Shown here one piece after another: positions 17,911 through 22,635 of a DNA stretch of 64,000 nucleotides; within the stretch, counting starts at the first letter, position 1, and the number at the start of each line of letters is the position of its first letter. The position numbers were made by a program, and so were the translations under genes. The stretch lies in NCBI GenBank assembly GCA_945876035.1, contig CAMCMU010000004.1, positions 1 to 64,000 on the forward strand, written 5' to 3'. Origin of the DNA: Schlesneria paludicola DSM 18645 (GTDB taxonomy: Bacteria > Planctomycetota > Planctomycetia > Planctomycetales > Planctomycetaceae). Under the pieces are notes generated by a model, which had not been told where the DNA came from, ran no database searches, and worked only from the letters and a program-made list of their open reading frames with translations.

Positions 17911-20900
17911 TCAACTACAGCCGTGACTCGTCCCGCAATTGTGACAAAGGTAACAATTGCCGTTGCGAACGGTAATTGCTCCACAGGCACAGCAGGCGGG
18001 CGCGTCTGACTGGAATTTCGCGAATTGTTGATTGCGATTCGCTGTTGCAGCAACGGCATGCCCGGAGACAAGTTGCGTGGCGATTTGGGGGCTGATGAAG
18101 GCAACAGTCGCTGCCGTGCGTTGAACGATTGCCGACGGCAGCTTGTCGCTGGTGTGCGAAGCGTATCCGTTGGCCGAACCGTTTGTCTTGGAGCTGCGGT
18201 CAAGACCGTTGCCGTTGGTCTGCAGGGTCGAAGTCGCTGGCGGGGATTTCTGAGCGACGACTTCGACCGTGTGATGTGTTTCCGAGGGGTCTTCACTGTC
18301 ATCCGCAGCGATCTCTCGACGCGGCGTGTTTGCCTCTCGGAATCCCGGCAGGAACTGAATACCGAGCCAGCGGAAAATATAATCCACCAAACTTTTTGCA
18401 ATCGGGATATCGGGGTTTGGAGTCCAACCACTTGGTTCGAAGCGTGTGTGAGAGAACTTCTCGACGAGGACTTCCAGTGGCACCCCGTATTGCAGTCCCA
18501 TCGACGTTTCGGTGCCGATAACGTCCATCAGGCCACCGATTGTACTTCCCTCTTTTGCCATGCTGATGAAGAGTTCGCCGGGGGTGTTGTCTTCGAACAG
18601 GCCAACGGTGATATAGCCTTCGTGGCCACCCACCGAAAACTTGTGGGTCAACGAATTCCGTGTGGCAGGCAAACGACGTCGTGCTGGCCGGCCATCCGCT
18701 CCTTTTTTACGGTCTCCCTCCTTCGTCGTCGACAAGGGCTGGCTTTGTTTTGAGCCATCGCGATAAATCGCCAGAGCCTTCAATCCCAGTCGCCAACCTT
18801 CGAAGTAAGCCTTTTCAATGTCATCGATTGTCGACTCCTTCGGCATGTTGACTGTTTTGGAAATGGCGCCGGACAAGAATGGCTGGGCGGCTGCCATCAT
18901 CTTGACATGCCCTTTCCAATGAATGGTCCTCGTCCCGTTGGCCGCCTTGAAGGCACAGTCGAAAATCCCCACATGTTCCGGTTTGAGATCCGCCGCTCCC
19001 TCAATGGTTTCGGTCTCCTCAACGTTTTTCACGATTCGTTCGATTTCTTGCGAATCGTATCCCAAGGTCTTAAGAGCAAGTGGAACCGTCCGGTTGATGA
19101 TCTTCATCATCCCTCCTCCGGCCAGTTGCTTGTATTTGACCAAGGCAATATCGGGCTCGATGCCGGTTGTGTCACAATCCATCATGAATGCGATTGTCCC
19201 CGTAGGAGCCAACACAGTTGCCTGAGCATTCCGGTAACCAAACTGACGCCCTGAATCAACACACTCGTCCCAGACCTTTCCGGCCGCCGCTCGCAAATAG
19301 TCTGGGCAGGTGGAGTCGATTCGATCGACGCCATCACGATGCATACGCATGACTCGCAGCATCGGCTCCGCATTGTTTTGGTAGCCGGCGAAAGATCCAA
19401 GATAACTGGCCATGCGACTCGATGTGAGATACGCCTGCCCAGTAAGTATGGCTGTCAATGAACCGGCGATTCCTCGGCCCGTATTACTATCGTAAGGAAT
19501 GCCCATCGACATCAGCAGGCTGCCAAGATTAGCATAGCCCAGTCCGAGTGGACGATAAAGGTGGCTGTTCTTGGCGATGTCAGGTGTTGGATAGCTTGCG
19601 TTATCGACCAGTATTTCCTGTGCGGTGATGAATATCGAGGCCGCAGCGCGGAACCGATCAACATCGAAAGATCCTTCGGGCTGTTGAAACTTGCGCAGGT
19701 TGAGACTGGACAGGTTGCATGCCGTGTCGTCGAGGAACATGTACTCAGAGCATGGGTTCGAAGCATTGATCCGCCCCGAATTCGGACAGGTATGCCACTT
19801 ATTAATCGTCGTATCGTACTGCACGCCAGGGTCACCGCAGTCCCACGCACCCTCGGCCATCTGACGTAATACGTATTTAGCATCATACTCCGGGCCGAAC
19901 TTCGCAGGGTCAGTGACCCAGCGAGTCTTCCATTTTTTCCCCTCCTCCACAGACCGCATGAACTCATCGCTCAGACGGACTGAGAGATTCGCATTCTGGA
20001 ACATCACGGAGGAATAGGCTTCTCCGTTAAAGTTGGCATCATACTCACCGCTATCGATCAGTGTCCGCGCCTTCTTTTCCTCTTTGTTTTTGCACTGGAT
20101 GAATTCCAAAATGTCTGGATGCCAATCCTTGAGAGACTGCATTTTTGCGGCACGACGGGTCTTACCACCGGATTTCACCACAGCCGCAATTTGGTCGTAC
20201 ACACGCATGAAGGAAAGTGGGCCGGAGGGTGTTCCACCACCCGACAATTTTTCCTTGGAGCCGCGAATCGTTGACAGATCGGTGCCCGTCCCGGAACCGA
20301 ATTTAAACAACATCGCTTCGCTTGTCGCGAGACGCATGATGTCTTCCATGTTGTCATCGACGGCCTGAATGAAGCAGGCGGAGGCTTGAGGCAACTGATA
20401 AGACGTGGCCGGTCGTTCGATCTCTTGGGTGGCTGGGTTGAAGTGATAGTTCCCTTTGGGGCCCTTCACCTGATATTGATGGAACAGCCCGACGTTGAAC
20501 CAGACGGGTGAGTTAAAGGAACCGAACTGGTGCAGACACATCCAAGCCAGGTCGCGGTAAAAATTTTCTCCGTCTTCGCGGCTGGCGAAGTACCCCCCGG
20601 CAATGCCCCAATCGGCAATGGTCCGGGCGACTCTGTGGATCACCTGCTTGACACTGGTCTCGCGTTCGACGGTATTCGGTTCACCATAAAAATATTTGGA
20701 AACAACAACATTCGTTGCCAAGGCGCTCCACGAGGAAGGTATCTCACAATTGGTTTGCTCGAAAAGAACTTTGCCGTTCTCGTCTTTGATCGCGGCTGTG
20801 CGATAGTCCCACTCCACAGTGCTGAACGGATCCGTGTCAGCGGGACAAAATCTCGGTGGGACACTCATCGGACGCATTTCAGGCATTTTGCGGGTGGTGA

Positions 20901-20973
20901 CACCAACACTCAGGGGGGCCGCCGCGACGGAAGAACCTGCGGAGATCGACATTCCTTTTGGCTCGTGCATCAT
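17911..20973 (-). CDS. nrdJ: Adenosylcobalamin-dependent (class II) ribonucleotide reductase
   Basis: Reduces ribonucleotides to deoxyribonucleotides using a cobalamin-derived radical, independent of oxygen. About 1020 residues, long planctomycete/actinobacterial type. RNR barrel motifs are seen: FNSPVWFNVG, FKFGSGTGTDLSTIRG, SNPCSEYMFLDDTACNLSSLNL, ATVLAPTGTIAFMMDCDTTGIEPD. A TSCPD-like region (SLTHKFSVGGHEGYITVGL) and a final zinc-binding tail with C-C-x2-C and CYLCHNCGTSHGC follow; the tail cysteines probably re-reduce the active site. ATG at 20973 or 20970 follows a strong GGAGGAG site. Preceded by tandem NrdR boxes and a promoter. No B12 riboswitch was recognised. Confidence 0.95.
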   Translation of the reverse strand: MMHEPKGMSISAGSSVAAAPLSVGVTTRKMPEMRPMSVPPRFCPADTDPFSTVEWDYRTAAIKDENGKVLFEQTNCEIPSSWSALATNVVVSKYFYGEPNTVERETSVKQVIHRVARTIADWGIAGGYFASREDGENFYRDLAWMCLHQFGSFNSPVWFNVGLFHQYQVKGPKGNYHFNPATQEIERPATSYQLPQASACFIQAVDDNMEDIMRLATSEAMLFKFGSGTGTDLSTIRGSKEKLSGGGTPSGPLSFMRVYDQIAAVVKSGGKTRRAAKMQSLKDWHPDILEFIQCKNKEEKKARTLIDSGEYDANFNGEAYSSVMFQNANLSVRLSDEFMRSVEEGKKWKTRWVTDPAKFGPEYDAKYVLRQMAEGAWDCGDPGVQYDTTINKWHTCPNSGRINASNPCSEYMFLDDTACNLSSLNLRKFQQPEGSFDVDRFRAAASIFITAQEILVDNASYPTPDIAKNSHLYRPLGLGYANLGSLLMSMGIPYDSNTGRGIAGSLTAILTGQAYLTSSRMASYLGSFAGYQNNAEPMLRVMRMHRDGVDRIDSTCPDYLRAAAGKVWDECVDSGRQFGYRNAQATVLAPTGTIAFMMDCDTTGIEPDIALVKYKQLAGGGMMKIINRTVPLALKTLGYDSQEIERIVKNVEETETIEGAADLKPEHVGIFDCAFKAANGTRTIHWKGHVKMMAAAQPFLSGAISKTVNMPKESTIDDIEKAYFEGWRLGLKALAIYRDGSKQSQPLSTTKEGDRKKGADGRPARRRLPATRNSLTHKFSVGGHEGYITVGLFEDNTPGELFISMAKEGSTIGGLMDVIGTETSMGLQYGVPLEVLVEKFSHTRFEPSGWTPNPDIPIAKSLVDYIFRWLGIQFLPGFREANTPRREIAADDSEDPSETHHTVEVVAQKSPPATSTLQTNGNGLDRSSKTNGSANGYASHTSDKLPSAIVQRTAATVAFISPQIATQLVSGHAVAATANRNQQFAKFQSDAPACCACGAITVRNGNCYLCHNCGTSHGCS

Positions 20974-21115
20974 GCACTCCTCCATATCCAAGACTCGGGA
21001 ACCAACACATATTCTCGCAACGAAAAAAGACCTCAGCGAATGGCTAGCCCACGGGAATTCCAAGGGTCAAGATGTTTTGAAGTCAGAAGAATCTGAAGAA
21101 AATGAATCGATAAAA

Positions 21116-21131
21116 GCACTATATATAGTGC
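21116..21131 (-). promoter_or_regulatory. NrdR box 1 upstream of nrdJ
   Basis: GCACTATATATAGTGC is a perfect 16-base palindrome that matches the NrdR box consensus (ACAC-WATATWTW-GTGT) except at the outer base pair. It lies about 145 bases upstream of the nrdJ start. NrdR represses ribonucleotide reductase genes when dATP is abundant. Confidence 0.85.
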
Positions 21132-21147
21132 CTAGCGGATATTTCAA
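21120..21147 (-). promoter_or_regulatory. Sigma-70-type promoter of nrdJ
   Basis: On the minus strand, TTGAAA (21147-21142), a 16-base spacer, then TATATA (21125-21120). The -10 lies within NrdR box 1 and the -35 touches box 2, so repressor binding would block polymerase. The 5' UTR would be about 140 bases. Confidence 0.6.
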
Positions 21148-21162
21148 TCCCATATTTAGTGC
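21147..21162 (-). promoter_or_regulatory. NrdR box 2 upstream of nrdJ
   Basis: ATCCCATATTTAGTGC matches the NrdR consensus at 12 of 16 positions, with one half-site clean. It is exactly 31 bases from box 1, the three-helical-turn spacing known for paired NrdR boxes. Confidence 0.75.
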
Positions 21163-21303
21163 CGTTGTCTGAATCAATCTAAATTGGCCGATACCAGATG
21201 TCAACACTCTTTTTTCACGGCCTGACCGCCAAGACTGATACATTCGGCACAACGGGCGATCTGTTATTGGGTTAACGAAATCCCAAAAAAAATGGCGATC
21301 GAT

Positions 21304-21344
21304 CTACGGGTCTGTCAATCAGTTCAAGGTTGACAGACCCGTAG
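21304..21344. terminator. 15-bp perfect stem-loop
   Basis: CTACGGGTCTGTCAA (21304-21318) and its exact complement TTGACAGACCCGTAG (21330-21344) flank an 11-base loop. No T-tract on either strand. It sits between nrdJ's promoter and cysC; it could insulate nrdJ from cysC read-through or be an inserted palindrome. Confidence 0.5.
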
Positions 21345-22023: not shown

Positions 22024-22635
22024 TTAGGCTGTGAAGTATCCGTGGTTCTGGAGATAAGAGATCACTTCACCGGCCAGTTCCTCAATTCCCTTTCGGTTCG
22101 AGTCGAGAACAAGTTCTGGCTTTTCGGGAGCCTCGTAGGGATCACTAATTCCGGTAAAATTCTTAATTTCACCGGCGCGGGCTTTCTTGTAAAGCCCCTT
22201 AGGATCGCGTTGCTCACATGTTTCGACCGAAGCATCGACGTGGATTTCGATGAACTCCCCCTGCCCCATAATCTCTCTCACTTTGTCGCGATCCGCTCGA
22301 TAGGGAGAAATGAATGCGGTTAAAGTCAAGCTGGCGTTTTGTGAGAACAACTTTGCGACCTCTCCAATCCGACGGATATTTTCCGCCCGGTCTTCAGCCG
22401 AGAACCCGAGGTTTTTATTCAGCCCCATCCGAATGTTGTCCCCGTCCAAGACAACGCTGTGTTTACCTGCCAGATACAGCTTGTGATCGACGGCATTGGC
22501 GATCGTGCTTTTGCCGCAAGCGGACAAGCCCGTGAACCACAGGATGGCCCCCTTATGCCCATTGAGTTTGGCTCGTTCTTCCTTCGACACATTGTGCTCG
22601 TGTCGGGTGATATTGGTGGCTTTTTGCTCGGTCAT
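22024..22635 (-). CDS. cysC: Adenylylsulfate kinase
   Basis: Phosphorylates APS to PAPS in sulfate assimilation or sulfation. 203 residues. P-loop GLSACGKSTIANAVD, then LDGDNIRMGLNKNLGFSAEDRAENIRRIGEVAKLF, AFISPYRADRD and DPKGLYKKARAGEIKNFTGI are diagnostic of APS kinases. ATG 22635. No sulfate adenylyltransferase genes are adjacent, so the enzyme is encoded apart from its partner. PAPS could serve the sulfated-glycan metabolism typical of planctomycetes, an inference only. Confidence 0.95.
   Translation of the reverse strand: MTEQKATNITRHEHNVSKEERAKLNGHKGAILWFTGLSACGKSTIANAVDHKLYLAGKHSVVLDGDNIRMGLNKNLGFSAEDRAENIRRIGEVAKLFSQNASLTLTAFISPYRADRDKVREIMGQGEFIEIHVDASVETCEQRDPKGLYKKARAGEIKNFTGISDPYEAPEKPELVLDSNRKGIEELAGEVISYLQNHGYFTA

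Follow-up and report, generated by a model that had tools for sequence, protein, structure and literature searches.

What controls the expression of nrdJ, the gene encoding an adenosylcobalamin-dependent class II ribonucleotide reductase (RNR), in the planctomycete Schlesneria paludicola? We addressed this question on a 64,000-nucleotide stretch of the genome (hereafter, the window), in which nrdJ occupies positions 17911..20973 of the minus strand and encodes a 1020 amino acid protein matching NF005122 (1399 bits) and TIGR02504 (588 bits). The protein comprises the PF02867, PF08471 and TSCPD domains, and a domain scan detected no ATP-cone domain in it. Its RNR barrel domain is the sole PF02867 match in the genome (assembly completeness 96.85%), and no RNR large-subunit gene other than nrdJ was found there. 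The coding sequence opens with tandem ATG ATG start codons at 20973/20970, and a Shine-Dalgarno-like GGAGGAG lies just ahead of them (20974..20983, minus strand), with the sequence GTGCATGATGCAC around the start being conserved in the genus.

The region upstream of nrdJ contains two 16-bp boxes resembling the binding sites of the repressor NrdR. The nrdJ-proximal box, at 21116..21131 on the minus strand, is the perfect 16-bp palindrome of the original prediction (GCACTATATATAGTGC), and the predicted ribosome binding site and start indeed follow, 142 bp downstream, which places the boxes in the promoter region of an RNR gene. The nrdJ-distal box (21147..21162, minus strand) is degenerate, reading ATCCCATATTTAGTGC on the plus strand and GCACTAAATATGGGAT on the nrdJ strand, and aligns with TCACCACATGTAGCGT and TCCCCAAGTCTTGGGC in congeners. 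The 12-of-16 match previously assigned to this box holds against the degenerate NrdR consensus (A/G)CAC(T/A)(A/T)TATA(A/T)(T/A)GTG(C/T), which the proximal box matches at 16 of 16 positions, but not against the proximal box itself, with which the distal box shares 11 of 16 positions. Only three of its eight dyad pairs are palindromic, making it a weak box. Both boxes nevertheless retain the conserved G-C pairs at positions 4 and 13 (C4 and G13), the inversion of which strongly lowers binding by Streptomyces NrdR (PMC9110341). The distance between box starts is exactly 31 bp, as had been claimed, and the resulting 15-bp spacer, corresponding to about three helical turns, falls within the 15-16 bp reported in the literature for NrdR boxes. 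A pattern search identified a single copy of the exact proximal palindrome in the 4.7-Mb genome, the next-best sites carrying 3 mismatches, and the chance expectation for this palindrome with at most 3 mismatches is 0.01 in the window. The genome contains 12 other CACWANNNNTWGTG palindromes, none of them convincingly paired with a second box at 30-32 bp, so that no further member of the regulon was found. For comparison, genome size is 6.3 to 9.0 Mb in the sampled congeners.

A genome-wide check located a full-length nrdR gene on a separate contig (C48). Its 153 amino acid product contains a Zn-ribbon (PF22811) and an ATP-cone (PF03477), both above cut-off, and its closest solved structures are those of NrdR (E 8e-37). 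The protein keeps the residues matching D15 and R17 of Streptomyces coelicolor NrdR (VVDSR), which lie at DNA bases (PMC9110341), together with an RRRR run. The gene was also detected in 140 of 150 genomes sampled from this order, all of which are classified in a single family. A ChIP-Seq study of Waddlia chondrophila (PMC4989314) reports conservation of NrdR throughout the PVC superphylum, with the Planctomycetes among its members, and its consulted portion describes no planctomycete operator or nrdJ promoter.

Conservation of the box pair was assessed on nrdJ upstream regions taken from complete genome sets of related members of the group and from genome contigs, using tblastn to anchor the nrdJ loci. 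A pair was called when C4 and G13 were present, the summed score was at least 20 of 32 and the spacing was 31 or 32 bp. Pairs with this spacing were detected in 100 of 129 distinct nrdJ upstream regions, where the other spacing pairs within the 19-60 bp range gave 6 to 26, and in 35 of 40 genera of the same family, the genus count being the safer figure because some of the 129 loci come from closely related strains and are not all independent. At the threshold used, the remaining five genera presented no box pair. At scores of at least 24, 28 of the 129 regions contained a pair at 31/32 bp, against 0 or 1 at other spacings, and when the best pair per locus was considered, 57 of 129 reached a score of at least 22 at 31/32 bp, as opposed to 5 of 1290 shuffled sequences. 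In the genus alignment the sequence linking the two boxes shows no conservation, and their spacing is mostly 32 bp in congeners and 31 bp in the window genome. With nrdR in the genome and the pair conserved in register upstream of orthologous nrdJ genes, the assignment of these boxes to NrdR, first made from the window, is borne out, and the comparative evidence indicates that the pair is very probably a conserved binding site for this repressor.

The position of the operator relative to the promoter differs from the original prediction, which had a TTGAAA/TATATA promoter overlapping both boxes. The two hexamers do exist, yet the promoter conserved among relatives lies further upstream and consists of a -35 element, TTGACA (21199..21204, minus strand), followed after 17 bp by a -10 element, TAGATT (21176..21181, minus strand). 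In the genus alignment TTGAC is invariant and precedes the distal box by about 42-45 bp. A -10-like element follows it after 16-17 bp and reads TATTGT, TATTTT or TATAGT at the orthologous position in relatives. TTGAC falls within 48-30 bp upstream of the distal box (at offsets of about 35-47 bp) in 96 of the 100 box-pair loci, compared with 0 to 6 loci in each of six other stretches of equal width. The position of these elements points to a transcription start site at about 21169. With a start near this position, the boxes would span about +8 to +54, just downstream of the -10 element, over the start site and the early transcribed region.

We conclude, with a probability of roughly 0.93, that the two boxes are an NrdR operator through which NrdR loaded with dATP and ATP would repress nrdJ, the main promoter being the TTGACA/TAGATT element just upstream. 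In established NrdR biochemistry, a dATP/ATP-loaded tetramer occupies a pair of boxes separated by three helical turns, introduces a bend in the DNA and obstructs RNA polymerase. By analogy, we infer NrdR binding, dATP dependence and repression at nrdJ: when dATP is high, a tetramer carrying dATP and ATP would bind the two boxes from the same side of the helix, and the bound protein would bend the DNA and block RNA polymerase, switching off nrdJ transcription. Since the start site and the early transcribed region would both be covered by the predicted operator, repression could operate, by block or by DNA bend, at initiation or at promoter escape. NrdR would be the obvious and main dATP sensor for this RNR, given that NrdJ itself has no ATP-cone.

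An alternative that retains the NrdR operator is that, in the window species, the upstream TTGACA/TAGATT promoter has weakened and transcription depends mainly on the TTGAAA/TATATA promoter inside the pair, in which case repression would be a matter of simple promoter occlusion. The -35 hexamer of this putative promoter (21142..21147, minus strand) overlaps the distal box by one base, and the -10 hexamer (21120..21125, minus strand) falls inside the proximal box after a 16-bp spacer. Its hexamer-match score equals that of the upstream promoter, the -10 of which, TAGATT, scores only 4 of 6 in the window species. It also has a parallel in relatives lacking this nrdJ, where a box pair spaced at 31 bp precedes 10 of 12 NrdA-type RNR genes (loci L173-L184), the -35 TTGAC beginning at base 16 of the distal box, its final position; the TTGAAA of the window stands in the same register. 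Against the internal element being the main promoter, however, it is absent from nrdJ in all congeners compared in the genus alignment, while the TTGACA at 21204 is kept in the window and TTGAC is nearly universal at the loci with a box pair. The alignment and the TTGAC offset counts led us to reject TTGAAA/TATATA as the conserved promoter, and its role as main promoter in this species is unlikely. Its hexamers and register suggest instead that it may be a real second promoter of the window species, following the NrdA-type layout. More tentatively, and with somewhat less than even confidence, we propose that two NrdR operator layouts occur in one family, with the pair downstream of the -10 element and over the start site at nrdJ, and with the promoter inside the pair at NrdA-type genes of relatives, and that both are present at the window nrdJ, as if in transition. 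The NrdA-type RNR of the relatives carries ATP-cones (PF00317 and PF03477 in the one locus scanned).

The remaining explanations dispense with NrdR altogether. The palindrome is, after all, merely 16 bp long and its distal partner is degenerate, as might be expected of an operator for another repressor or of an A+T-rich palindrome arising by coincidence within a promoter. Against either origin stand a spacing peak at exactly 31/32 bp over 129 loci, the retention of C4/G13, the presence of nrdR and the recurrence of box pairs at a different RNR class, and we regard this explanation as very improbable. A cobalamin riboswitch in the nrdJ leader, controlling the gene in place of NrdR, would suit an adenosylcobalamin-dependent enzyme and a long leader, of about 195 nt from the predicted start site. 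Searches with Rfam families at gathering thresholds, however, returned no match near nrdJ in the window or at 20 related loci, in line with the earlier remark that no such element was visible, and the RF00174 aptamer was not found in the nrdJ leader. The sole cobalamin riboswitch of the genome maps to another contig (C13, 21454-21645, minus strand, 123.6 bits). A riboswitch at nrdJ was accordingly rejected, and we consider it the least credible of the explanations weighed here.

The NrdR operator proposed for nrdJ has close counterparts in characterized systems. S. coelicolor already provides an established case of a class II RNR promoter bound by NrdR, which acts there on nrdRJ, encoding the class II RNR, and on nrdAB through paired boxes 31 bp apart in register (PMC9110341). 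In both S. coelicolor and the window, the target is a class II RNR, the boxes are close to the start site, and the C4/G13 base pairs and the D15/R17 residues are present. The two systems differ in that the window nrdR and nrdJ do not share an operon, that the window genome yielded no second RNR large-subunit gene and that the conserved -10 element of the window lies entirely upstream of the boxes. In Escherichia coli, NrdR boxes at nrdAB, nrdHIEF and nrdDG are likewise separated by 15-16 bp, and the working pair at nrdAB (boxes 1 and 2) also occupies the downstream portion of the promoter region (PMC12176259); there, by contrast, the targets are class I and III enzymes, encoded in several RNR operons as opposed to one in the window genome.

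NrdR control of the window nrdJ is what known biology leads one to expect and is ordinary for bacteria, the modest new point being the layout of the promoter. The 2022 Streptomyces study searched GTDB genomes for NrdR boxes, and planctomycete sites may therefore already be contained in its data. The comparative evidence presented here extends the NrdR regulon to a planctomycete class II reductase and provides a testable rule for the placement of promoter and operator in the family.

Additional sequence elements were observed around nrdJ and elsewhere in the genome. Between the nrdJ promoter and an apsK-like gene (22024-22635), the window contains a perfect 15-bp inverted repeat, CTACGGGTCTGTCAA, with an 11-nt loop (21304-21344), which is possibly a terminator. 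Several Schlesneria relatives (L013, L015, L017, L018, L020) present CTGCCAGGCTGTGGCAG, a possible hairpin, in the nrdJ leader a short distance ahead of the start of the gene, and the window lacks this sequence. The cobalamin riboswitch on contig C13 precedes a gene for a DUF1559 (SBP_bac_10) prepilin-like protein and, further on, one for a DUF6580 membrane protein, an arrangement that hints at a possible role of these planctomycete families in the uptake of cobalamin.
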